Virus record (IMG/VR): IMGVR_UViG_3300017951_000168
Coordinates: 1 to 21,527 of that record
Source: a virus
Strand: one strand, 5' to 3'
Length of the DNA: 21,527 nt
Position numbers and translations under genes: made by a program. Shown here piece after piece: positions 2,399-21,479 of the stretch (positions are counted from its first letter, which is position 1; each line of letters starts with the position of its first letter). The notes beneath the pieces are model-generated. The model was given only the letters and a program-made list of their open reading frames with translations, was not told the origin of the DNA and made no database searches.

Positions 2399-2406
2399 TA
2401 TAAATA
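2399..2406 (+). promoter_or_regulatory. T4-type late promoter for the gp4 unit
   Basis: The exact box TATAAATA lies 33 bases before the gp4 start. With T4 spacing (box at -13 to -6), transcription would start near 2412 and give a leader of about 28 bases. gp33, the late co-activator used at such promoters, is encoded in this window. Confidence 0.8.
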
Positions 2407-2431: not shown

Positions 2432-2439
2432 TATTTATA
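2432..2439 (-). promoter_or_regulatory. T4-type late promoter for the gp48-gp53-hub unit
   Basis: The minus strand reads TATAAATA (plus-strand TATTTATA), placed 46 bases before the gp48-like start at 2386. The predicted start site is near 2426. It faces the plus-strand late promoter at 2399-2406, so the two transcripts would share about 15 complementary bases at their 5' ends. Confidence 0.8.
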
Positions 2440-2886: not shown

Positions 2887-2894
2887 TATAAATA
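2887..2894 (+). promoter_or_regulatory. T4-type late promoter inside the gp4 unit
   Basis: The exact TATAAATA begins immediately after the gp4 stop. A start site near 2900 would leave a 16-base leader that contains an AGGAG ribosome site at 2902-2906 in front of the next ATG (2916). It would give the tail/hub genes extra late transcription independent of gp4. Confidence 0.75.
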
Positions 2895-4919: not shown

Positions 4920-5084
4920 TATAAAACAAACTTTGCTATGATGCAACATCATAAGTACAGTTTAACAGAATTGGAAAATATGGTACCATGGGAGAGAGAA
5001 ATATATATAGCTCTTTTACAGCAACATATTAAAGAAGAGAATGAGAGGGCAAAAGCTCAAGAACAAAGAATGAGGAGAAAATAA
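4911..5084 (+). CDS. 51: Baseplate hub assembly catalyst gp51-like (likely reached by -1 frameshift from gp26)
   Basis: The frame encodes 'VNHYKTNFAMMQHHKYSL', 'ELENMVPWEREIYIALLQQH' and a charged tail, as in small gp51-type proteins of T4-like marine phages; T4 gp51 is an assembly factor needed for hub formation. The conserved sequence runs back through the in-frame residues Y-L-A-L-A-H-D-S-L to 4884 with no ATG. The only independent starts are GTG at 4911 (given here, 57 residues) and ATG at 4938 (48 residues), and neither has a ribosome site. I therefore think it is mainly made as the C-terminal part of a gp26-51 fusion spanning 4168-5084. Its TAA overlaps the next ATG (TAATG). Confidence 0.75.
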   Translation: MNHYKTNFAMMQHHKYSLTELENMVPWEREIYIALLQQHIKEENERAKAQEQRMRRK

Positions 5085-5416
5085 TGGGCGAAGAAGAAAT
5101 TAAAGCAAGTGGACATCACCCAGCGGATACTAACGGAGACGGAAAAGTGTCAAGAAAAGAACAGGAAATGTACCTGGAATTTAAAAGAAAAGAACTTGAA
5201 GACCTAGATGCAATGAGAGATGCACAACGTAAAATGGCATGGTTCGCATTAGGCGGTATGTTACTATACCCCTTTGCAGTTGTTATTGCAGTATTGGCAG
5301 GTCTTGAACAAGCAAGTAATATACTAGGAGATATGGCGGCAACATATTTCGTTGCAGTTGCTGGTATCGTAGCAGCATTCTTTGGGGCACAAGCACTTGG
5401 TGCTAGTAAAAAGTAG
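5084..5416 (+). CDS. Small EF-hand membrane protein, probable virion component
   Basis: The 110-residue protein carries one EF-hand/dockerin-type calcium loop, DTNGDGKVSRKE, at residues 15-26, with Asp/Asn/Asp at positions 1, 3 and 5, Gly at 6 and Glu at 12. A charged helix follows (residues 27-50), then two hydrophobic segments (about 52-72 and 85-105). It sits between gp51 and the tape measure with a TAATG overlap, so it is made with the tail hub genes. A hub-tip or tape-measure-associated protein that enters the host membrane during DNA injection is plausible; a holin is less likely by position. Family name not recognised. Confidence 0.75.
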   Translation: MGEEEIKASGHHPADTNGDGKVSRKEQEMYLEFKRKELEDLDAMRDAQRKMAWFALGGMLLYPFAVVIAVLAGLEQASNILGDMAATYFVAVAGIVAAFFGAQALGASKK

Positions 5417-8851: not shown

Positions 8852-9106
8852 CTATATTGGTAGTTTATTTGATTTTTTGGCGTTCTTAATAAGATTAAGA
8901 TTAGTTGCCTCATGTTCGATTTTATCACGTAATGAGTCCGTTAAAAGTTTTTTAAGATTTTGGTATTGCATACCTCGTTCTTCTATTATCATAACTGCGG
9001 CATCTATATAACTAACCTCTCTATTGTTAGCCACTAGGTTCTCTACAGCCATGGAAAATCTTTTCTTGGTCATTATCTTGTGTTTAAATAATTTTTCTTC
9101 TGTCAT
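8852..9106 (-). CDS. 33: Late transcription co-activator gp33
   Basis: The 84-residue protein carries the gp33 motif 'MTKKRFSMAVENLVANNREVSYIDAAV' (given here as two overlapping phrases: TKKRFSMAVENLVANNR and REVSYIDAAVMI) and 'SLRDKIEHEATNLNLI'. T4 gp33 bridges RNA polymerase and the sliding clamp so that late promoters with TATAAATA are used. Its presence explains the many such boxes in this window. The ATG overlaps the stop of the preceding gene by 4 bases, showing coupling. Confidence 0.87.
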   Translation of the reverse strand: MTEEKLFKHKIMTKKRFSMAVENLVANNREVSYIDAAVMIIEERGMQYQNLKKLLTDSLRDKIEHEATNLNLIKNAKKSNKLPI

Positions 9107-10275
9107 AACACTCTAAGTAAAATACAATCTTGGTTAATTCTTCCGTTAGGACTATTCACCTTTGTTGTAATCTGATCTTTCCAAACTTTCTCTATTTGTT
9201 TGGCAGTCTTGGTTAATATTAAAGGAAGTATCACATCTGGTTTTCTTAACTTAGTACACTTAGATAATTTCTCATCAAAGTTTTTAATTGTGGTACCGCC
9301 CACTTCAAACCCTTTCGTTGCAGTGGTTACATACTGATATAGGGTTCTGTTCTTTGCGTTGAATACAAAGAGTGTAGACGCCCCTGGTATAGTAATAGGA
9401 TTAATAGATGTTAATTTATAATCCATATCCTCTACCTTAAATTTTAAATTCTTAACTTGTTGGTCTGTGGCTTTTGGTTTTCTTGCCCTTGGAGTTCTAG
9501 TTGCCTTGAATGATAGTTGTAATTTATCCAAGTCAGCATAGATAGTATCCATCTGTTTCAACATTTTCTTTTTATTGGCAGTAGTAACATGCGAGTAGCT
9601 CTCTACACACTGCTCACATGTTTTGTCTACAGCCGCTTTTATCTCTTCATAATACCCATCAATGATTTTCTTAAATGGCGCTATAGCATTACCCTTTAAG
9701 TTATTCTCTTTGAATAAGGCAAATACATCAATAGAGTTTTTATAGTTCTTATCAAACCAGCCCTCTACAATGGTATCGTCCCAGGCAGTATAGATGGTAT
9801 CCATCATCTTTCTACGTGTTCTTTCTGCCACGGAAATAACTGGTGGGGCATTCTTTTTCTTTTCTTTCTGTTCGGCAACAATCAGTTTTGCGGCATCTAC
9901 TTTTTCTTTTGCGTAACCCTTAAATCTTTCAATCTCTTCTTGTGTATATTCATAACCACGATAATATAAACGGGATACTTTACCTAGATGACTTGCAATT
10001 TCCCAATCCCTTAGTTTCTTAACAGTATTGGCTTGTTTCTTTGTATAACCACATACCTCTTCAATAAAGTCTATCACATAAGGCACATAATCTTTTGCCT
10101 TGTAGTAATAGTTATACCAGTTGGCACCTTTAGTCCACATAAGGTCACGATCTTCTACTCCAGGCGCTGTTTCACCTGGCTCAAATAAAGGCTCTTTACC
10201 TACATAGGTATCTTCGATAGTAACTCGATTTCTTCTACCTTTCTTTCTCGTTGCTTCTAATTTTTTGCTTACCAT
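9103..10275 (-). CDS. Conserved T4-like phage protein of unknown function (390 aa)
   Basis: The protein is not a family I can name. It opens with a very basic segment (KKLEATRKKGRRNR, residues 4-17). An acidic/aromatic region follows (WTKGANWYNYYYKAKDYVPY, about 48-67). A long Lys/Glu-rich helical part with 'AERTRRKMMDTIY' comes next. The C-terminal third is strand-rich ('STLFVFNAKNRTLYQYV') and ends in 'INQDCILLRVL'. No membrane segment or signal is seen. It is first in a unit with gp33, gp59 and possibly gp32, behind a strong promoter (10299-10327), so it belongs to the replication/transcription group. The basic N-terminus suggests a nucleic-acid-bound role. The codon start is supported by GGAG upstream. 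Confidence 0.85.
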   Translation of the reverse strand: MVSKKLEATRKKGRRNRVTIEDTYVGKEPLFEPGETAPGVEDRDLMWTKGANWYNYYYKAKDYVPYVIDFIEEVCGYTKKQANTVKKLRDWEIASHLGKVSRLYYRGYEYTQEEIERFKGYAKEKVDAAKLIVAEQKEKKKNAPPVISVAERTRRKMMDTIYTAWDDTIVEGWFDKNYKNSIDVFALFKENNLKGNAIAPFKKIIDGYYEEIKAAVDKTCEQCVESYSHVTTANKKKMLKQMDTIYADLDKLQLSFKATRTPRARKPKATDQQVKNLKFKVEDMDYKLTSINPITIPGASTLFVFNAKNRTLYQYVTTATKGFEVGGTTIKNFDEKLSKCTKLRKPDVILPLILTKTAKQIEKVWKDQITTKVNSPNGRINQDCILLRVL

Positions 10276-10625: not shown

Positions 10626-10804
10626 TATGTGTTATCTCCATCTGTAGTTTTTACTTTTGATTTATCAAAATATCCACCTGACTCCCATGGCAATGGGATT
10701 CTTTTCTTTTGCTTTTTCTCTTCTACTAAGTGAAAACTCATATAGCAGAAAATAAAAGCGCCTGAAACGAATACTATACTTATAAAAATATTTAATATAT
10801 CCAT
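10625..10804 (-). CDS. Small single-pass membrane protein (59 aa)
   Basis: This short gene runs from ATG at 10804 to TAA at 10627-10625. It starts MDILNIFISIVFVSGAFIFC, a transmembrane helix (residues 3-25), followed by a Lys/Glu-rich stretch (VEEKKQKKRIPLPWESGG) expected to face the cytoplasm. The stop shares bases with the next ATG (TAATG) and the start lies one base from the stop of the previous gene, so it is embedded in a coupled series. Family unknown. Confidence 0.72.
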   Translation of the reverse strand: MDILNIFISIVFVSGAFIFCYMSFHLVEEKKQKKRIPLPWESGGYFDKSKVKTTDGDNT

Positions 10805-10805
10805 A

Positions 10806-11123
10806 TTATTTTCCTATGTGTTCCACGTCCTTTCGTGGTATTACTTGATAGGCACCTTTATTATATGCTGGTGCCACTGTGAAATTTTTAGATACTTCAG
10901 TCTTCCAACTTTCATCTTTTTCTGGTCTATATGTATTACCCATTGGGGCTGACGGATACATTTCCCTATGTTCTCGCGATTTTTTTGCGGCAAGGGATTC
11001 TTCCATTACATACGGTTTAAATTTGGTCTTCAGTTTAGGTGCCTTTTTAAATGCATTTGTTTTACGTTTGCGACCATGTATATCATAACGTAAACTTCCT
11101 TGATAAAAATTTGTCATTGCCAT
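10806..11123 (-). CDS. Conserved small basic phage protein (105 aa)
   Basis: This basic protein has 'RYDIHGRKRKTNAFKKAPK' and 'YPSAPMGNTYRPEKDE', a signature of a widespread small-protein family in marine T4-like phages (GRKRKT...YPSA). Function unknown. A second Met at residue 3 (MTNFYQG) could be the true start. TAATG overlap with the 49-aa gene upstream. Middle/early expression is expected from promoter 11556-11584. Confidence 0.8.
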   Translation of the reverse strand: MAMTNFYQGSLRYDIHGRKRKTNAFKKAPKLKTKFKPYVMEESLAAKKSREHREMYPSAPMGNTYRPEKDESWKTEVSKNFTVAPAYNKGAYQVIPRKDVEHIGK

Positions 11124-11272
11124 TATGCCAAAATCTCCATTACTGTTTCTTTAATATGCTTCTTTTCTAATTCTTTTTGTTTTTGTATCCAAAGTTCTTT
11201 AAACTCTGGATTCTGTGCACGACTTTCGGCCAGACTTAACCAGGCCATTTGCTGTTCGTATGATTTCTTCAT
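11123..11272 (-). CDS. Small helical protein (49 aa)
   Basis: The frame begins MKKSYEQQMAWLSLAESRAQ and continues as a charged helix to MEILA; it has no recognised family. It starts and ends in TAATG overlaps with its neighbours on both sides, which supports its being translated. No other gene covers this interval on either strand convincingly. Confidence 0.7.
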   Translation of the reverse strand: MKKSYEQQMAWLSLAESRAQNPEFKELWIQKQKELEKKHIKETVMEILA

Positions 11273-11529
11273 TAATAATCCCAATCGTTCTTCATGGAAT
11301 TATAGGAATCCATGTAACTACTACCAGCAAGAAAATCTCGGGTATCTTGATCCGAGTAATACATATTATCTTCTGCAAAGCAATCTAAACTACGAGGCGC
11401 TTGATGTGCGGCCTTCTTCACACTTTTAGTTAGACGTTTAATTTGAGCCTTACGTTCATCAATGGTCTTAATAGTCTTTGCCATTTTACGGGCTTCAGCG
11501 GCTTTCTTAATCATTTCCAATCTATCCAT
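11272..11529 (-). CDS. Small phage protein of unknown function (85 aa)
   Basis: The N-terminal half is a Lys/Ala-rich amphipathic helix (IKKAAEARKMAKTIKTIDER), the C-terminal half acidic and aromatic (FAEDNMYYSDQDTRDFLAGS). No family recognised. It is first in a five-gene coupled unit (85-, 49-, 105-, 59- and 79-aa proteins) behind the promoter 11556-11584, with GGAG before the ATG. Confidence 0.75.
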   Translation of the reverse strand: MDRLEMIKKAAEARKMAKTIKTIDERKAQIKRLTKSVKKAAHQAPRSLDCFAEDNMYYSDQDTRDFLAGSSYMDSYNSMKNDWDY

Positions 11530-11555
11530 TACTTTTCTCCATAATTAATATAGTT

Positions 11556-11584
11556 ATTATATCACGCAATTTATTGTATGTAAA
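11556..11584 (-). promoter_or_regulatory. Sigma70-like promoter for the small-gene unit
   Basis: On the minus strand: an A-tract, then -35 TTTACA (11584-11579), 17-base spacer ending in TGA, -10 TATAAT (11561-11556). The TGA directly before TATAAT also forms an extended -10. The A-tract upstream (AAAAAAACAC) resembles an UP element. Confidence 0.82.
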
Positions 11585-11607
11585 GTGTTTTTTTAACTTT
11601 TTTTCAT

Positions 11608-11916
11608 TTATGTTAAAAAACCTATAATCTGAATCAGCAGATCATTGTCTGCCATGTACTGTGCCATATTTTTTGTAAGTAGAATTAGCCCCACCCCATT
11701 TAATAATATAAGTGCACGATCTTCCCATATAATTGATACCCATAACCATAATGCAATACCAATAATAGAAAGTGATAAATCTACAACTTGAAACTCTGGG
11801 ATTCCTCTAAATGACATCGCCACTAGCACAAATATAGATGCGACCCACTTGATATACCAATCAAGCGGCTTGTTCTTGCTTTTCAAAATACTCCTCCAAT
11901 TCATCACTGCCGACAC
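11608..11916 (-). CDS. Conserved membrane protein, three helices (102 aa)
   Basis: The protein has 'MNWRSILKSKNKPLDWYIKW' followed by three hydrophobic segments (about residues 23-35, 46-63, 68-84), with 'WEDRALILLNG' between. This set is common in T4-like marine phages as a conserved membrane protein. Function unknown. It overlaps the end of the 174-aa gene by 56 bases from Met1, or by 44 bases if Met5 (MNWRSIL, 11904) is used; the latter matches family starts better. Confidence 0.8.
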   Translation of the reverse strand: MSAVMNWRSILKSKNKPLDWYIKWVASIFVLVAMSFRGIPEFQVVDLSLSIIGIALWLWVSIIWEDRALILLNGVGLILLTKNMAQYMADNDLLIQIIGFLT

Positions 11917-13617: not shown

Positions 13618-14205
13618 TTATAAGGAAGGAAAGGTTATTAACCCAACCGAATCCATAACTTGAATATTATTAATTACAGCAAGAGTTAATAAGGCATTTG
13701 GGAAGTGCAAGTCCTCAGGATTGTCTCCAGCAAGATGGATCATGTATCTTCCCCAAAATAATTTGAATAGTATTATTTCCCCATCGCTTGGGTTTTTACC
13801 TAATAGTGGATTTGCCTCGTAAACATTTGGATGGCTAAGACCACGAATAGTTGTATATGCGTCTAATGCATTGATTGCCCAGAAATAGGTCTTTATTTGT
13901 CTATCATCAAACTGTGAGAATCGTAACCCTTTCAGATTTACCTTTGACTGTAATGTTATCGACTTGATTGAAGCTTCTCTCCGAACACTTTCCAGCAGTG
14001 AACTGTGATAACAACACTCGAACCCCATCATAATTTCTTGTTTGGCCTTCGAGTCTAGCGCCCAAGTTGACGGCATCTCCAATGACGGAATAGTCAAATC
14101 GAGATTCCGATCCCATATTTCCGACGATGCAGTCGCCGGTGTTGATACCAATACCAACATCAATCCTAGGAAGGCCTTGATCTTCCAATTGTGCAATAAG
14201 TTCAT
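13618..14205 (-). CDS. Small protein with DUF5658-like end, overlapping the cyclase gene
   Basis: The downstream part, about residues 100-195, is the non-overlapping real segment: 'TYFWAINALDAYTTIRGL' and 'YEANPLLGKNPSDGEIILFK', a pattern of a small family in phages and bacteria (ALDAYTT...ANPLLGKNPS), often exported or membrane-bound. Upstream there is no ATG, GTG or TTG between the cyclase stop and Met60, so the start must lie inside the cyclase gene: Met59/60 (overlap about 120 bases) or Met1 (overlap 299). From Met1 the sequence 'KAFLGLMLVLVSTPATA' looks like a signal peptide with an ATA cleavage end. No ribosome site decides it. The start given is the longest form. It is the last gene of the late unit; no terminator follows before promoter 13569-13597. 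Confidence 0.6.
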   Translation of the reverse strand: MNLLHNWKIKAFLGLMLVLVSTPATASSEIWDRNLDLTIPSLEMPSTWALDSKAKQEIMMGFECCYHSSLLESVRREASIKSITLQSKVNLKGLRFSQFDDRQIKTYFWAINALDAYTTIRGLSHPNVYEANPLLGKNPSDGEIILFKLFWGRYMIHLAGDNPEDLHFPNALLTLAVINNIQVMDSVGLITFPSL

Positions 14206-15736
14206 CTGCTGCCTCTAATATTTCTACTGCTGTCCTTACAGCCATATCTGCATGATTTTCACATGGTAATGGTGCGTTCCAGAATGCCATAATACAATCG
14301 CCCATATATTTATCAATAGTTCCACCATTCTTGAGAATGATTTTTGTCATTGTATCTAAGTAATTATTTATAAGCTTTACTAACCCTTCTGGGTCATTAT
14401 TGTTTTTATAGTGTTCTGATATTGGTGTAAACCCAACAATGTCCATAAACAAGAAAGTCATTTCCTTTCTTTCTCCACCAAGTTTTAAAAGTGATGGGTC
14501 TTTCTGTAATAACATAACTTGTCTTGGGTCTAAGTAAGTTTCAAATTGTTTCTTAATTTGTTGTCTGAGAACAAACTGTTTATAGAAATTATTAAAGCTT
14601 GTTGATGTAAACAGCAGTATAAATAGCACTAGAGGATAACTAAGGTCTAAAAGTATCTGGAATTTAAACCATGCAAACCAAACTCCAAAGATAGATATAC
14701 CGAGAACCTTAATAAATGTAAATGAGGATATCCACAATGATGTATAATAAGCAGTTAGAACTACCACTAGACCAAATAGAAGCATTACCCCAATCTCCAA
14801 GGCATTTGCCCATATGGGCCGTGAAATCTGGGCCCCATCTATTATGGACTGCATTGCAGAGGCCTGAAGTGAATGTGCAGGTTTCATTCCAAATGGAGTT
14901 GGAATTTGAGCCGAAAGACCCTTTGCAGTTAGACCAATCAGAACAGTCTTACCCTGTAGATCAGGTAACTCACTGGACCCGTAATTTATATCCTGAAAAT
15001 GGGTATTAGGATTAATCCACATAGAACCATTACTATCTGAATTAATTCTAAACGGCCTTAAGATTATTTCTTCAATACCTGCTTCGTTTACTTTAACTGT
15101 ATATGATGGTTTCTGATTCATCACTCTTATAGTTTCTAAAGAGAATGCAGGATATAGCTCACCATTGATTTGAGATATCAGAGGGATTCTTCTTACTAAC
15201 CCATCCACCTCTGGCATACCATTTACAAGACCGTGGCCCCACGCTCCTTGTTCTAGCTGTGATATATTAGTAATAAGACCACTATATTTTATAACCCAGT
15301 CTAGCGGGTCTCCTGTACCAAATGTAGCAGAACCCACATAAGGTGCTGTAGATGATTTACCTGAATTATCAGCATCCTGTGCGAGTATAATACCATTATC
15401 ATTTATCCAAGATGCAAATACTTCATCACCACCAAATCTATCTGCCTCTGGAAACATAATTGTAAATCCTATTAGACCTGCATTTGCATTACGAAGATCC
15501 GAGATCATCTGCGCATATATTTGTCTAGGAAATGGATATTGGCCATGAACAGCCAGTGTTTCTTCTGATATATTTAATAATACTATTTGATCTGAATGTT
15601 TTTCTTCTATCGTGCCTATCATGGCATCGAATGTATTTAATCTGAATTGTTGAACCAGAGCCGGATCTAGCAATCTGATTCCTACTAAAAGTAAGAATAA
15701 GGCTATAGTCGCCCAGATAGATGTTATATATTTCAT
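13907..15736 (-). CDS. CHASE2-domain transmembrane adenylate cyclase (class III)
   Basis: With ATG at 15736 the protein has 609 residues and an ATGA overlap with the curlin-like gene before it; a longer start at 15781 is possible but less likely. Order: N-terminal helix (about 6-22), CHASE2 periplasmic sensor (about 30-305, including 'GFTIMFPEADRFGGD' and 'LQGKTVLIGLTAKGL'), three membrane helices (about 310-382), linker, class III cyclase domain (about 420-605). The catalytic set is complete: metal-binding Asp432 (FMDIVGFT) and Asp480, adenine-selecting Lys476 and Asp548 (DKYMGD, FDYSVIGD), transition-state Asn557 and Arg561 (VNLGARLE). K/D rather than E/C predicts cAMP, not cGMP, as product. 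Such cyclases are common in bacteria, often near FecR-domain genes, but unusual in a phage. Confidence 0.9.
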   Translation of the reverse strand: MKYITSIWATIALFLLLVGIRLLDPALVQQFRLNTFDAMIGTIEEKHSDQIVLLNISEETLAVHGQYPFPRQIYAQMISDLRNANAGLIGFTIMFPEADRFGGDEVFASWINDNGIILAQDADNSGKSSTAPYVGSATFGTGDPLDWVIKYSGLITNISQLEQGAWGHGLVNGMPEVDGLVRRIPLISQINGELYPAFSLETIRVMNQKPSYTVKVNEAGIEEIILRPFRINSDSNGSMWINPNTHFQDINYGSSELPDLQGKTVLIGLTAKGLSAQIPTPFGMKPAHSLQASAMQSIIDGAQISRPIWANALEIGVMLLFGLVVVLTAYYTSLWISSFTFIKVLGISIFGVWFAWFKFQILLDLSYPLVLFILLFTSTSFNNFYKQFVLRQQIKKQFETYLDPRQVMLLQKDPSLLKLGGERKEMTFLFMDIVGFTPISEHYKNNNDPEGLVKLINNYLDTMTKIILKNGGTIDKYMGDCIMAFWNAPLPCENHADMAVRTAVEILEAADELIAQLEDQGLPRIDVGIGINTGDCIVGNMGSESRFDYSVIGDAVNLGARLEGQTRNYDGVRVLLSQFTAGKCSERSFNQVDNITVKGKSERVTILTV

Positions 15737-16479
15737 TGACCTTGTGTAACTGATACTGTACAACCACCGACTGTATAACAAGTTTGAGATAGTGAATATG
15801 ATTGAGCAGTTGTTCCTAACTGTATCAGTGTTAAATCTGTTCCGTATGTTCCATCAAGTGTAATGTTTGCTGTATGAGAAGTATTTGCACCTTTTTGTCT
15901 TAACGTAACTAAATTATCATCATTATATATTGTTAGATCCATATCTTTTGCACCACTTGATTGTTGTCTTCCATTAATTTCGTTCCAATCTCCTGCAAGA
16001 TGAAAATTAAAATCGTGTCCGTCTGTTGCATCACTTTGATTTGTTTGGTGCCATTTAAGTGAATTATTACTACCATATAAATCTATTTCCATATAGTGTC
16101 CGCCACCTTCAGCACCATCATAAGTATATGAACCATCACTCTGCCATGCAACACCTTGTGCTAATTTAAATGTATTATTTGAACCTGATACTTCATCAAA
16201 TAAAATTTTATTAACATTATTTGTAAAATTATATTGGACTATGTGAATATCTAGGTTAGGTGCATTGTTAATATAAGAAGCAGAATCTAACATGCCAATT
16301 TGATTATTATATCCTACTTGCTCGATTTCTAATGATAGATTATCACCACTTTGTTCTATTGTAATTTCATTATCGTCTGCGTATAATGGCATTACTAAAA
16401 AGAAACATGACCCCCATGGTAATATCCAATATTTAAATATAAATTCTCTTATCTTCTTCCAGTCCATTCTAACCACCAT
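15733..16479 (-). CDS. Exported curlin-like repeat protein 2
   Basis: The 248-residue protein has a basic start and hydrophobic core (about 13-34, FIFKYWILPWGSCFFLVMPL) ending at 'YA-DD', a likely signal peptide. The mature start 'NEITIEQSGDNLSLEIEQVG' matches the CsgA-type repeat I-x-Q-x-G-(x)-N-x5-Q. Further strands with Asn turns follow (GSNNTFKLAQG, GSNNSLKWHQ, NLVTLRQKGANT, TLIQLGTT, SVTQGQ). Two cysteines (234, 240) near the end are matched in the sister protein. It resembles a fibre subunit or nucleator. Met5 (16467) is an alternative start. It lies between FecR and cyclase genes. Confidence 0.72.
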   Translation of the reverse strand: MVVRMDWKKIREFIFKYWILPWGSCFFLVMPLYADDNEITIEQSGDNLSLEIEQVGYNNQIGMLDSASYINNAPNLDIHIVQYNFTNNVNKILFDEVSGSNNTFKLAQGVAWQSDGSYTYDGAEGGGHYMEIDLYGSNNSLKWHQTNQSDATDGHDFNFHLAGDWNEINGRQQSSGAKDMDLTIYNDDNLVTLRQKGANTSHTANITLDGTYGTDLTLIQLGTTAQSYSLSQTCYTVGGCTVSVTQGQ

Positions 16480-16534: not shown

Positions 16535-17653
16535 TTAATTTACCTGATTGATAACGATAAAAATATCTTCACCGTCATTTCCTGTTATATCTCCTTCCCA
16601 TGTAGGAGTGTTTGTAGCAAGAGTAAAGTTACCACCTGTTCCGACTTTAACTTTAATTACTCCATTTACATTTCTATATAGTACTAAACTTCCATCTTCC
16701 AAATAAACATTATATTGTGATTCTTCATTAAATCCTCTAGTTGCTCCTTTGATATCAAACTCGCCTAAAGAATCAAATAAATCTGATGAATCAATTATGT
16801 CTAGCACATCAACTAAATATTCTACGTTTAGTTCATCAATATCTAACTCACTAAAATCTAATTCCGGTTCACTTTCTTCTAGTGCGTCTTTTTCTAGTTC
16901 GTTAAATTCTAAGAAGTCTATATCCAATAAACCTCTATCATCATTTTGTTCATCAGCCAACTCTTCTTCAATTCTATCTTTTACTTCAGGTGGAGGAGCA
17001 ACGATAAACATATTATCAATTTGAGTTGGAGTAATTCCATTTAATTTTACTACTTGGGTGGGTGCGGTATCTAATGAACTTACCATTGTTGCTTGATAAG
17101 CTTCATCAAGAGTTACTACACCACCTAAATTAGCCACCTCTATTTCTCCAGACGGATCTCCATTTTCATCTGGCAACAATATAACTAATGATCGGCCTAA
17201 TTCATCTACTGTTGTAGTAAAATCAGTACCTCTAATTGCTATTGTTGCAGTCGGAGTAGATATATCAATATTTGCATTATTAACTAATCCTAATCTGCCT
17301 GAAGCAAACCTTGCCGTACCCATTGTGAACTTCATTGTCATCTTGGACAGGGATGGGTCAGCATCATAATATATTTCATCTATTAGAACTTCACTATGTT
17401 CTTTTAATGCTAATTGAGCCTTATCTAAAAACTCTATTAACATTCTCCCCTGTCCAGTTTCTGCAATATCATTTAATTCGATAGCAGTATTAACAGCCAT
17501 ACTTACAGACTGTTGGTTTCTTACTATCTGACCAACTCCTGTGGACTCGACTATACTTCCAATATCATCATCTGCATATACAGGCAAAGATAAAAGAAGT
17601 ATAATACTAAGAGTCGCTAGAGCTGTCTTGCTGATTAATCTGAATTGTAGCAT
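16535..17653 (-). CDS. Periplasmic FecR-domain protein
   Basis: The 372-residue protein begins with a signal peptide (ISKTALATLSIILLLSLPVYA, cut about 27). A FecR domain follows (about 55-150) with 'GQGRMLIEFLDKAQLALKE' and the signature 'STPTATIAIRGTDFTT'. Residues about 215-300 are strongly acidic (EEELADEQNDD, ESEPELDFSELDIDEL), and a small strand-rich end follows. Unlike the iron regulator FecR it has no membrane helix, so it is probably a soluble sensor, scaffold or fibre partner. It overlaps the curlin-like gene upstream by 47 bases. FecR-domain proteins paired with CHASE2 cyclases are known in bacteria; here the curlin-like gene sits between them. Confidence 0.82.
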   Translation of the reverse strand: MLQFRLISKTALATLSIILLLSLPVYADDDIGSIVESTGVGQIVRNQQSVSMAVNTAIELNDIAETGQGRMLIEFLDKAQLALKEHSEVLIDEIYYDADPSLSKMTMKFTMGTARFASGRLGLVNNANIDISTPTATIAIRGTDFTTTVDELGRSLVILLPDENGDPSGEIEVANLGGVVTLDEAYQATMVSSLDTAPTQVVKLNGITPTQIDNMFIVAPPPEVKDRIEEELADEQNDDRGLLDIDFLEFNELEKDALEESEPELDFSELDIDELNVEYLVDVLDIIDSSDLFDSLGEFDIKGATRGFNEESQYNVYLEDGSLVLYRNVNGVIKVKVGTGGNFTLATNTPTWEGDITGNDGEDIFIVINQVN

Positions 17654-18344
17654 TGTCTGATGTAATATCTAAATCTATAATCGCATTTGGTGTAGCACAA
17701 CCCGTAATATTTGTAGCACAAGTTCCACTGATTTGATCAATATCAATGTCAGCAGAATCTCCACTTAATACTACAGTAAGAGATTGAGAACCATCATTCT
17801 GTAATGTGTTAATGTTATTGCTGTCTCCAGTAATATCAAAATTCCAAGTTACATCATCAGCCTCAAAATCTAAATCAAATACGTTAGAACTACCAACCAG
17901 AATTAAGTCAGCATCCAATCTTTCAGCACTATATAAATATCCTTGATCTATATCAAATGTATTACTATCTCCAGTGATATCAAAGTTATAATTTGAATCA
18001 TCAGCAGAACCTATGTAACCAATATTCCAGTCCAATACATTTGAATCTCCTGTAAAAGAAATAGTAAAATCAGATGTATCTGAAATAAGAGGTCCATAAA
18101 TTATATTTTGATTACCTATCATATCTATATCAAAAGTTAAAGATGATCCAGTGATAACCATATCAGAAGCAGTAGTTGAAAAATCATTACCGCCGATCTT
18201 GTTACCATATCCAATCTGATCAATATAAAGTGTTAAAGTATTACCACTTTGTTCAATCATGATTTCGTTATCATCAGTTGCTTGTGCCAAAATTGAAGGT
18301 GCTAAAAATGCACTTAATACTAAACTAGTTAATACCTTCTTCAT
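17607..18344 (-). CDS. Exported curlin-like repeat protein 1 (amyloid subunit candidate)
   Basis: The 245-residue protein opens with a clear signal peptide (KKVLTSLVLSAFLAPSILA, cut after Ala20 or 22). Its mature start 'NEIMIEQSGNTLTLYIDQIG' follows curlin logic (I-x-Q-x-G ... Q-x-G-x-x-N). It then carries repeats of alternating hydrophobic strands joined by G-D/S-S-N turns at about 99, 125, 151, 173 and 195, 22-26 residues apart (FTGDSN, ITGDSN, VGSSN, ITGDSN, SGDSA). The body is Asp-rich, unlike Gln/Asn-rich CsgA. Cys209 and Cys216 lie near the end, as in the sister gene. It starts 20 bases inside the csgG end, with AGAGG before ATG. CsgG and CsgF next door suggest that it is the exported cargo. 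Confidence 0.78.
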   Translation of the reverse strand: MKKVLTSLVLSAFLAPSILAQATDDNEIMIEQSGNTLTLYIDQIGYGNKIGGNDFSTTASDMVITGSSLTFDIDMIGNQNIIYGPLISDTSDFTISFTGDSNVLDWNIGYIGSADDSNYNFDITGDSNTFDIDQGYLYSAERLDADLILVGSSNVFDLDFEADDVTWNFDITGDSNNINTLQNDGSQSLTVVLSGDSADIDIDQISGTCATNITGCATPNAIIDLDITSDNATIQINQQDSSSDS

Positions 18345-19350
18345 TTTCGTTTTCCTCTATTAGAGAGTGCCTTTGGTTTACCCCACCTATTTGGTGAGGA
18401 TGCCTATGGCCCTCAGTTAAATTCCAGAATTTACGGTCATGGCCCTGGTAGATTAATTCCAGTACAGCCGCCTCAATGGCAGATCGTACTGCATACGTCA
18501 CGCTCTCATTATTTCCCACTCCGTCCTCATACTCTAATAGTCTTGTACCTTGTTCATAGAACCTAAATACATCACCACTAGAGCCGTAAGAAAGTACCGA
18601 CTTCTTAGCCTGGACGTTTAATAAAACTTCCCCCGTTAGAACTGAAACTGCTCTTACTGCAACAGTTACAACATCTTTACGGTACATTCTACTATAACCA
18701 ATCCCGAGAGTTCTGGCACCACGGCCTCCTGTCTCCAAATTAGTATCGTAGCCTATTATTCCGCCCTCTATGATTATTCCTGCGAATAACATGGGGCCTA
18801 ATTCCTTTGCTTCCGTGCCTTGACTTCTTGCCAAATCTTGACGGCCGCTTCGGATAATTTGTCTTTCTCTTACAAGGTTATCAATACCTTGCCTTTCTAC
18901 TACTCTAAACCAAGTGCCACCACCTGCAGTTTTAAGAGCATCTATAAGTAATTCTGTTCCACCTTGGGTCACTGCTGTAGAAAATGAAGCAACATTATCT
19001 ACTGATTTTCTTTGTCCTGTTTTATCAGTAAACCCATAAACTGCCACTACTGGCATTTCTTCTGCTGGTGGTAAGTTAAGTAATTCTACAAATGAAGGTA
19101 GTCTGATAGCCATTGGATTGTCTACGCAGATATACTTTCTTGACATTACTTTTTGCCATTCGTTATATCCTTGTCTAGCAACTGTGACTAAATCATCATT
19201 AATAACACCATCGTTATCAAAATCTTTATCGTAACCTTCACTGTATATTCCTGCTAGATCATTGCAGTCTCTCGGATCTGAACTCCATTGTGGTACAGAA
19301 GCGCAACCAGTTAAAAATAATAATCCTGCTGTTAATAAAGTTCTAACCAT
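18325..19350 (-). CDS. csgG: CsgG-like outer-membrane lipoprotein channel
   Basis: The 341-residue protein has a lipobox, LTGC, with Cys16 for lipid attachment. The core matches CsgG closely: 'VAVYGFTDKTGQRKS', 'SFSTAVTQGGTELLIDALK', 'FRVVERQGIDNLVRERQIIR', 'IIIEGGIIGYDTNLETGGRG', 'ARTLGIG', and 'VRAVSVLTGEVLLNVQAKKS' with 'LSYG...VFRF'. In bacteria CsgG is a nonameric pore that exports curlin. The constriction loop, aligned by eye, keeps Phe56 but has Asp and Ser for Tyr51 and Asn55 of E. coli. About 80 extra residues lie before the core, with a calcium-loop-like 'DKDFDNDGVINDD'. It overlaps csgF by 8 bases. Confidence 0.92.
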   Translation of the reverse strand: MVRTLLTAGLLFLTGCASVPQWSSDPRDCNDLAGIYSEGYDKDFDNDGVINDDLVTVARQGYNEWQKVMSRKYICVDNPMAIRLPSFVELLNLPPAEEMPVVAVYGFTDKTGQRKSVDNVASFSTAVTQGGTELLIDALKTAGGGTWFRVVERQGIDNLVRERQIIRSGRQDLARSQGTEAKELGPMLFAGIIIEGGIIGYDTNLETGGRGARTLGIGYSRMYRKDVVTVAVRAVSVLTGEVLLNVQAKKSVLSYGSSGDVFRFYEQGTRLLEYEDGVGNNESVTYAVRSAIEAAVLELIYQGHDRKFWNLTEGHRHPHQIGGVNQRHSLIEENENEEGIN

Positions 19351-19846
19351 TGTCTGGATCCTGCCCGAAATTACCAGTTCCTACTGGAATCTCTATAACA
19401 GTCTCTGAACCATCCTCTGCTACAATCGTCATTCTAATAACTTCTGAACCATCTGCATTAGTAATTACTTCATAGGTAACTGTATTACCTTCTAAAACAA
19501 ATGAACCAAATCTTACTGATCCGTCATTAGAAAACATAGATTCCACTAATTGTTTTGCCATCTGAGCATATATTCTGCTCTCTAAATTTCTGATAAATTT
19601 TGCAAGTACGCTATTATCTTCTTCCCTTTCTGCTGCTTTTCTTGCTGCTTCTAAAGCATCTTCAATTGCTTTCTTTCTAGTGTGTTCTATATTATCAATT
19701 GTAAGGTAATGTTGACCTGTACCAACTCCACTAAAGGAAGGATTCTTAAATCCAAACTTTATTTCATCTGCATATGCAGGTTGGGTAATACCAAATATTG
19801 ATACTACAAAAATACCACATAATATAGCAACTTCAAACTTGCTCAT
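19343..19846 (-). CDS. csgF: CsgF-like curli assembly factor
   Basis: The start at 19846 is chosen because AGGAGGA sits 5 bases before it; a longer reading from 19885 overlaps the 92-aa gene needlessly. The 167-residue protein has a signal peptide (about 1-26, ending QPAYA) and mature N-terminus 'DEIKFGFKNPSFSG', which matches CsgF 'TFQFRNPNFGG', the part that inserts into the CsgG channel. After this come a helical Ala/Glu-rich stretch and strands at the end (NADGSEVIRMTIVAEDGSET). CsgF couples the pore to curlin nucleation at the surface. Next gene csgG overlaps by 8 bases. Confidence 0.85.
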   Translation of the reverse strand: MSKFEVAILCGIFVVSIFGITQPAYADEIKFGFKNPSFSGVGTGQHYLTIDNIEHTRKKAIEDALEAARKAAEREEDNSVLAKFIRNLESRIYAQMAKQLVESMFSNDGSVRFGSFVLEGNTVTYEVITNADGSEVIRMTIVAEDGSETVIEIPVGTGNFGQDPDNG

Positions 19847-20111
19847 TATTTCCTCCTCGCTTATTGGTCTTTTTCTTTTTTTCATTCTCTCTATATTCTA
19901 AGATTACATTTACTTTTTGTTGTAATCTAATTAAATCTTGATCTAACATTCTTGTCTGATCAATTACTCTTATCAACGCAATGTGCATTTCTTCTAACTT
20001 AGGTTCTATGTGTTCATTTATATACGACCAAACATAGTATATAAAATATCCCATCCCAACTGCCATTACTGCTGGGAATCCGTAATCTGATACTAGTTGT
20101 GCCACATCCAT
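19833..20111 (-). CDS. Holin-like single-pass protein with coiled tail (92 aa)
   Basis: There is one N-terminal membrane helix (residues about 11-30, FPAVMAVGMGYFIYYVW) with a short exposed start (MDVAQLVSDYG), followed by a coiled-coil tail (35-75) and a very basic end (KKKKTNKRGG). This resembles BhlA/UviB-type phage holin-like proteins in layout. The 98-aa gene upstream has the same layout, so the two may be paralogues. It starts directly after that gene's stop, with AGGAGA before the ATG. Position after the lysozyme supports a lysis role, but a part of the curli cassette is possible. Confidence 0.65.
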   Translation of the reverse strand: MDVAQLVSDYGFPAVMAVGMGYFIYYVWSYINEHIEPKLEEMHIALIRVIDQTRMLDQDLIRLQQKVNVILEYRENEKKKKTNKRGGNNEQV

Positions 20112-20408
20112 TTAATCTCTCCTAGTATCTATTTTACCATCTTCTATAAAGTTTTCTGCTCTTGCTATTCTTTCAGTATCTGGTCTTAAATGTAAAGCAG
20201 TACTTACAAGTAAGTCAATCTTTATCATTTCATTACTCATTGTTCTACATCTATTTTCTAAACTTTTTGCAAAGATAGTAAGAGTATCAATCTTTTCTAC
20301 TATCCCTGCGAGTATTTGTTTTATAACAATAAAAATAAATACACCCATAACAAGTGATCCTGCTATAGGCGCTCCAACGTCTGCAATGAGTTTGAACACT
20401 TCTTCCAT
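20112..20408 (-). CDS. Holin-like single-pass protein (98 aa)
   Basis: A single membrane helix near the N-terminus (about 11-36, GAPIAGSLVMGVFIFIVIKQIL) is followed by a helical cytoplasmic tail (SLENRCRTMSNEMIKIDLLV) and a charged end. Same layout as the 92-aa gene that follows at once. The ATG lies 6 bases after a TATAAATA box, leaving essentially no leader and no ribosome site, so it may be translated from a leaderless mRNA. Confidence 0.68.
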   Translation of the reverse strand: MEEVFKLIADVGAPIAGSLVMGVFIFIVIKQILAGIVEKIDTLTIFAKSLENRCRTMSNEMIKIDLLVSTALHLRPDTERIARAENFIEDGKIDTRRD

Positions 20409-20414
20409 ATATTC

Positions 20415-20422
20415 TATTTATA
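20415..20422 (-). promoter_or_regulatory. T4-type late promoter for the holin-like/curli cassette
   Basis: The minus strand reads TATAAATA, ending 7 bases before the 98-aa ATG (20408). With T4 spacing the first transcribed base is 20409 or the A of the ATG itself. It follows the hairpin at 20449-20467, so it appears to begin a new late transcript carrying the holin-like genes and the curli cassette. Confidence 0.75.
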
Positions 20423-21305: not shown

Positions 21306-21479
21306 TTAATCCTTTATTAAATATTTATACATATATTCTTCAGCCTTTTCAAGACTGTTAAATTTACGAATTTCGTTACCTGTTGCCACTTCGACTATAG
21401 TATATATATTGTATAATCTCTTAATTTGAAAAGGCAACATTCTTATTGGCCCTAATCCAGGTTTAACTGATGCCATCAT
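21306..21479 (-). CDS. Small basic protein (57 aa)
   Basis: The frame reads MMASVKPGLGPIRMLPFQIK and ends 'EYMYKYLIKD'; ATG at 21479 or 21476. A CAGGAT site lies before it. The order of a basic N-terminus, a strand (YNIYTIVEVATGNEIRKFN) and a short helix (SLEKAEEYMYKYL) is reminiscent of small nucleic-acid or peptide-binding phage proteins, but no family is named. The lysozyme promoter lies in its 3' end. Confidence 0.68.
   Translation of the reverse strand: MMASVKPGLGPIRMLPFQIKRLYNIYTIVEVATGNEIRKFNSLEKAEEYMYKYLIKD
21322..21329 (-). promoter_or_regulatory. T4-type late promoter for the lysozyme unit
   Basis: The minus strand reads TATAAATA inside the end of the 57-aa gene. The expected start near 21316 gives a 12-base leader that contains AAGGAT before the lysozyme ATG at 21304. 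Confidence 0.78.

Follow-up and report, generated by a model that had tools for sequence, protein, structure and literature searches.

The gene at positions 17607-18344, here called curA, probably encodes one of the two subunits of a curli (type VIII secretion) module in a T4-like marine phage close to HTVC008M and Melnitz, a module that would make acidic fibers holding cells together. In this subunit, an oily column takes the place of one glutamine ladder, the outside is acidic, and the core is devoid of aspartate. What the module does, whether fiber formation, aggregation, exclusion, or an aid to lysis, we infer from sequence.

The locus and its relatives

The window, i.e. the whole stretch of DNA that was analyzed, is an IMG/VR virus record of 21,527 bases. 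The open reading frame of curA assigned in the initial annotation was borne out exactly, with 245 amino acids. It lies on the minus strand, and the plus-strand reading of 17607-18344 is full of stops. On the minus strand, the module reads TM/coiled-coil 1, TM/coiled-coil 2, csgF, csgG, curA, fecR, curB, and CHASE2-cyclase, and its genes overlap or almost abut. The features are the following:

20415..20422, minus strand: TATAAATA, putative T4-type late promoter element at the operon head
20112..20408, minus strand: small TM/coiled-coil protein 1, the first gene of the module; PHROG 18771, TM by eye
19833..20111, minus strand: small TM/coiled-coil protein 2; PHROG 18771, TM by eye
19343..19885, minus strand: CsgF; Pfam CsgF, E 1.4e-12; conserved FKNPSFSG segment (alignment)
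18325..19350, minus strand: CsgG, outer-membrane curli pore lipoprotein; Pfam CsgG, E 1.1e-53; LTGC lipobox by eye
17607..18344, minus strand: curA, 245 aa, Asp-rich curlin-type subunit of about 8 repeats; Cys209 and Cys216 (CX6C)
16535..17653, minus strand: FecR-domain protein; Pfam FecR, E 1.9e-7; its ORF overlaps the curA end by 47 nt
15733..16479, minus strand: curB, 248 aa, second curlin-type subunit; Curlin_rpt over cut-off; Cys234/Cys240
13907..15736, minus strand: CHASE2 sensor with adenylate/guanylate cyclase; Pfam CHASE2, 2e-37, and Guanylate_cyc, 2.9e-19

For the CHASE2-cyclase, the start was placed at an ATG that overlaps the stop codon of curB; its longest ORF would span 13907-15781. 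The csgG and csgF genes lie directly upstream of curA, which is the neighborhood of a type VIII secretion operon. The fecR ORF begins 47 nt inside curA (17607-17653, minus strand), out of frame. With fecR read as its longest ORF, an overlap of this length recurs in 42 of 71 loci. To note, the conserved tail of curA may partly reflect this overlap. No match to CsgE, CsgC, or CsgD was found among the module proteins (ten compared with Pfam, nine with NCBIfam), and the available text of Wittmers 2022 (PMC9599517) likewise describes all three as absent from the pelagiphage module.

The gp32-like protein of the window has its closest relatives, among the matches listed, in HTVC008M (57.0%) and Melnitz (56.4%), and the window thus belongs to a T4-like, pelagimyophage-type marine phage. 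When the window was compared with phages by megablast, the matches listed comprised solely a 221-base stretch of gp32. Scans of the window for tRNAs and Rfam families found nothing. A 110-residue membrane-type protein encoded at window positions 5084-5416 (plus strand) carries an EF-hand-like segment, DTNGDGKVSRKE, recognized by eye.

The locus survey covered the best 80 of 208 CsgG-bearing viral relatives, while the best 80 of 499 curA relatives in IMG/VR were kept. Of the 80 loci, 55 hold the complete set of six genes running from csgF to the cyclase, in identical order in 55/55, and the order csgG-curA-fecR is kept in all 69 loci that hold these three genes. One of the 80 loci misses curA and eleven miss fecR; those loci end there. 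Median dN/dS values are 0.17 for curA (42 pairs), 0.16 for curB (24 pairs), 0.13 for csgG (44 pairs), 0.11 for fecR (36 pairs), 0.09 for csgF (47 pairs), and 0.14 for the cyclase (12 pairs), the pairs being mutually dependent rather than independent samples. The module genes are thus under purifying selection and maintained for their proteins. A chance ORF rich in Asp, Gly, and Asn is ruled out by the dN/dS of 0.17 together with the conserved gene order, and also by IMG/VR, where 499 of the 513 sequences matching its pattern encode a curA relative. Among the loci titled as bacterial genomes or MAGs, L163-L172 carry a CsgG up to 78% identical to the phage CsgG and look like phage contigs binned with bacteria.

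Residues 82-320 of CsgG match solved CsgG chains (E 1.9e-44). In the alignment of its constriction, the Phe of FSTAV is kept and the Tyr and Asn before it are not; the lost residues correspond to Tyr51 and Asn55 of the E. coli constriction. An N-terminal insert of CsgG holds an EF-hand-like loop, DFDNDGVINDD, a loop present in 10 of 80 CsgG ORFs, that of the window included. The F/K-N-P-S-F-S-G block of CsgF is kept in the 14 myophage rows nearest the window and slightly changed in HTVC008M and Melnitz; a search for solved relatives of CsgF found none. The two small TM/coiled-coil proteins (92 and 98 aa, window positions 19833-20408, minus strand) are paralogous, and one or two such ORFs precede csgF in 77 of 81 csgF-bearing loci (two in 70, one in 7). 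They have no kinase-family match.

Fold and repeat chemistry of the two curlins

The assignment of curA as a curlin-type cargo of a type VIII secretion system, as the initial annotation had it, is supported by the csgG and csgF genes upstream, by a solenoid model, and by the presence of two homologous subunits. The hydrophobic N-terminal leader, ending ...ILAQA and judged by eye, agrees with the signal peptide proposed there, and the N-terminal curlin phrase NEIMIEQSGNTLTLYIDQIGYGN is indeed present. Turns had been described every 22-26 residues; the turn glycines 77, 99, 125, 151, 173, and 195 are 22 and 26 apart. Mature curA contains 5 G[DSNQG]xN turns against 0.87 expected from 5000 shuffles (p = 0.001). 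The curlin profile on which the annotation had made its reading depend does match residues 24-49 (Pfam Curlin_rpt, PF07012, E 0.0026), at a score of 18.1 bits that falls just below the 20.7 cut-off. The curB protein passes that cut-off with 21.1 bits, and at E<=0.1 the profile matches 30 of 31 members of the curA alignment and 24 of 30 of the curB alignment.

Structure prediction points the same way. AlphaFold2, supplied with 29 alignment rows for each subunit, models curA as a strand-turn-strand repeat fold (pLDDT 77.6, pTM 0.73) and curB as repetitive strand-turn-strand (pLDDT 74.9, pTM 0.74). In the predicted curA model, strand pairs recur about every repeat, as in a beta-solenoid. Its best match in BFVD is a phage protein named 'Curlin associated' (E 1.1e-7, TM 0.75/0.78), while Foldseek of the two models against the PDB gave no match at E<=0.001. 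With VIA-align, the matches listed for the curA model are beta-helices, and SufB/SufD rank first (Z 16.1, rmsd 3.2-3.4, 195-199 aligned); the helices of SufB/SufD we take to be right-handed. Curli models are left-handed (Sleutel 2023, PMC10192328). The models thus support a solenoid for curA and leave aside its handedness relative to CsgA. A search of PDB sequences with the curA and curB profiles returned no curlin, the best match for curA being a retinoic-acid-binding protein (E 0.28). Neither 8c50 nor 8enq, two solved curlins that a sequence search with a bacterial curlin does retrieve, is among the structural matches listed for curA or curB, and this is no evidence against the fold.

The curlin repeat is described as N-$-h-$-h-$-Q-XGXX-N-$-h-$-h-$-Q, where $ points outward (Sleutel 2023, PMC10192328). 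With the register set by eye on the turn glycines, the first repeat of curA is almost canonical and seven later repeats fit, the last with Ser at the place of the turn Gly. Aspartate had been thought to replace Gln/Asn in most strands. The register contradicts this: of the 48 outward positions, 18 are Asp, and of the 64 inward ones, 0 (Fisher p 2.6e-8). Across 29 members of the curA family, Asp makes up 32.5% of outward residues and is absent from positions 1, 7, 12, and 18 and from the inward hydrophobic positions. Over 8 repeats in these 29 sequences, N12 and Q18 are each kept in 62.5% and Q7 in 18.1%; position 7 is hydrophobic in 81.5% and the inward hydrophobic positions in 93.2%.

A separate scan with a fixed pattern places this family among its relatives. 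Gln is found at position 7 in 15.6% of the repeats of the curA family (83.0% hydrophobic), 25.2% of those of the curB family (69.6% hydrophobic), 27.3% in the two curlins of HTVC008M, and 25.0% in the two of Melnitz, as compared to 86.6% in 112 bacterial curlin ORFs, a contrast somewhat inflated since the bacterial set was selected for canonical repeats. That set (112 ORFs from 79 loci) was picked by at least two Q.G..N.....Q repeats and contains some ORFs with spurious upstream extensions; the filter took no curlin ORF from the phage-like loci L163-L172. The change in the core is therefore from Gln7 to Ile, Leu, Val, or Phe, and it is common to other phage curlins. Outward Asp amounts to 37.8% in curA, 10.7% in curB, 11.9% in bacteria, and 20.1% in the flavobacterial loci (11 ORFs). 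Mature curA contains 15.8% Asp, against a maximum of 13.6% among the 112 bacterial ORFs. In repeats 2-8, mean identity is 0.90 at majority-Asp outward positions (n 14), 0.63 at other outward positions (n 28), and 0.70 at inward hydrophobic positions (n 35), a measure biased in favor of Asp because Ile, Leu, and Val interchange in the core.

The neighboring gene at 15733-16479, also on the minus strand, does share the start motif of curA, as had been noted. BLASTP aligns the two proteins with 38% identity over 55 residues, with a convincing score confined to the leader and the first repeat, and a profile comparison extends the match to 181 columns (E 5e-17). Of the proposed subunit/nucleator pair, the two homologous subunits with a shared first repeat stand, while a nucleator role is not readable from sequence. 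The terminal Cys pair ascribed to curB is present there and is not confined to it, as curA has one too. All 71 complete curA sequences hold exactly two Cys, spaced CX5-7C, and the curA proteins of HTVC008M and Melnitz also have exactly two, in another loop. Among the 55 curB sequences with a DNxI start, 45 have two Cys and 10 have four, five curB sequences without that start being left out of the count. The Cys pairs are read as intramolecular disulfide loops.

Charged 'gatekeeper' residues are known to slow premature assembly of CsgA. Here, the Asp-lined exterior and the missing Gln7 ladder plausibly delay assembly in a similar way, and the subunit probably remains soluble up to its export; this role is suggested by the lack of any CsgC or CsgE match in the module and by hosts reported to be without curli genes. 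The large loss of the Gln7 ladder also makes strong amyloid behavior doubtful. The curlins could then be non-amyloid, that is, a soluble, acidic, disulfide-stapled solenoid adhesin or ion-binding protein exported by CsgG. The hydrophobic replacement of Gln7 in 83.0% of the family repeats, the 37.8% outward Asp, and the constant Cys pair are consistent with such a protein, as is the match of the curA model to a Ca2+-dependent beta-helical antifreeze protein (Z 12.0, rmsd 3.9, 173 aligned). The first repeat, however, is nearly canonical and is the best conserved segment of curA (0.90), as expected of a stacking face, and we hold this alternative to be somewhat unlikely. RTX proteins are marked by GGxGxDxUx nonapeptides or a HemolysinCabind match. 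No RTX or other calcium-repeat family is present among the Pfam matches at E<=1, which also counts against the non-amyloid reading, and the turns read TGDSN, without the double glycine; an RTX repeat protein was thus rejected. A tail fiber or head decoration was likewise set aside, PHROGs giving curA only a weak Hoc-like match (E 0.039).

A fiber switched by calcium or pH, as the initial annotation had imagined, would be compatible with the acidic fibers preferred here, and we give it little credence. Small ions should equilibrate across the outer membrane, Ca2+ passing through porins, and calcium would therefore be a poor switch triggered by export. The majority-Asp positions are more conserved than the other outward and the inward hydrophobic ones, but the identity counts favor Asp over the interchangeable Ile/Leu/Val, and the curlins of the flavobacterial loci are also Asp-rich outside (20.1%), so that the trait may be general. 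On the other side, excess Ca2+ alters the packing of an acidic curlin (Sleutel 2023, PMC10192328).

Timing of expression and possible roles

The window contains 10 copies of the 8-mer TATAAATA, which we take to be the T4 late-promoter element, where 4.2 are expected; this number is reached by 3 of 100 shuffles. Five of the ten copies precede a gene start on their own strand by 7-46 nt:

20415-20422, minus strand: operon head
21322-21329, minus strand: lysozyme gene
2432-2439, minus strand: gene start
2399-2406, plus strand: gene start
2887-2894, plus strand: gene start

Among the operon heads of related loci, 46 of 76 carry TATAAATA ahead of the first small gene (24 of 44 once dereplicated), mostly beginning 13-14 nt before the ATG. 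Among 55 anagram controls, the best reached 4 of 44 heads and the mean was 0.64. This enrichment at operon heads suggests late expression, and the curli operon is probably expressed late in the phage of the window. The other 30 of 76 heads are without TATAAATA, and part of the family must therefore use another route of transcription or a start farther upstream. Among 19 of these loci that were examined, the 15 holding the preceding 87-aa gene all have no TATAAATA within 120 nt upstream of it. In the available text of Zaragoza-Solas 2020, late-promoter prediction in pelagimyophages was unsuccessful.

The proposed sequence of events is as follows. The operon would be transcribed late in infection from the T4-type late promoter. 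Both subunits would cross the inner membrane via Sec, each would form one small disulfide loop in the periplasm, and both would leave through the CsgG/CsgF pore. They would then stack end to end via the shared first repeat into acidic fibers on the infected cell, and these fibers may hold neighboring cells together, perhaps along with released virions. An earlier proposal of this kind, in which host cells and progeny aggregate, is 'sibling capture'. Melnitz cultures are described without clumping (Buchholz 2022, PMC9004378), and the available texts of the studies cited here contain no report of such a fiber having been observed.

With the same secretion anatomy, the fibers could instead coat the infected cell and block other phages, a role in superinfection exclusion or surface masking suggested by Wittmers 2022 (PMC9599517). 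A late-type promoter, its function being deduced from the motif, would delay the fibers until infection is almost over, when exclusion is of least benefit, and this role appears improbable. The late promoter favors aggregation and a lysis-related pore over exclusion. A gated pore or pinholin-like lysis aid has been discussed for these systems (Buchholz 2022, PMC9004378). The CsgG/CsgF pore would then be the functional part and the curlins minor plugs or remnants. The two small TM proteins at the operon head, one with a weak match to the holin family phrog_4898 (E 0.0015), the lysozyme gene close upstream of the operon, and the late-type promoter fit such a pore. Yet the dN/dS values of the two curlins and their presence wherever the contig is long enough argue that they are not remnants, and we consider a pore-centered function unlikely.

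Returning to the fibers, a more speculative picture, less likely than not, is that marine T4-like phages evolved a curli lineage of their own, expressed late and with an oily column for a Gln ladder on one sheet, a conserved Asp face, and a disulfide loop capping each subunit; such a fiber might stay soluble in a host without curli chaperones and, as infection ends, assemble outside and stick host cells and progeny to one another. According to published accounts, the SAR11 and OM43 hosts lack curli genes, so that an infected planktonic cell would acquire an entirely new surface through phage curli. Should the module indeed be late and its fibers real, the view of virus-driven aggregation in dilute seawater would change. 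The redesigned core also provides a natural experiment on which elements of the curli zipper assembly requires. The altered core of the subunit, its acidic outer face, and its probable late expression are the details worth testing.

Comparison with known systems

The curA module is a further member of the already described phage type VIII secretion modules, with some details that were not seen reported. Wittmers 2022 (PMC9599517) reports the same module from both families of pelagiphages, complete with the two curli repeat proteins, FecR, and the cyclase, and with expression in metatranscriptomes. The order CsgF, CsgG, curli repeat protein, FecR, second curli repeat protein, and adenylate cyclase is the same, in Myoviridae and Podoviridae. 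That article puts one or two 'histidine kinases' before csgF, where the window has the TM/coiled-coil proteins of 92 and 98 aa, and its available text describes no zipper change, Asp face, or promoter. Among the titles and abstract starts listed for curli in phages, none announces a structural or promoter analysis of these curlins.

Pelagibacter phage HTVC008M (KC465899) has the same operon order and two curlins, its curA being 30.3% identical over 83% of the query. It differs by a shorter CsgG of 280 aa and by the position of the Cys pair (residues 98 and 107). Methylophilales phage Melnitz (MZ577097) also shares the gene order, and its record holds two 'curlin associated repeat protein' entries. 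To note, these entries (9001-9720 and 10779-11795) contrast with the text of Buchholz 2022 (PMC9004378), in the part available, according to which csgA and csgB are lacking.

Among bacterial curlins, the closest comparison is the degenerate (D) class of CsgA (Sleutel 2023, PMC10192328), which has the same XGXX turns, N12 in most repeats, outward polar residues, and inward hydrophobic ones. Hydrophobic substitutions in the N/Q columns are permitted in this class, as described there. In contrast, the phage family loses Gln7 systematically, and mature curA reaches an Asp content of 15.8%.
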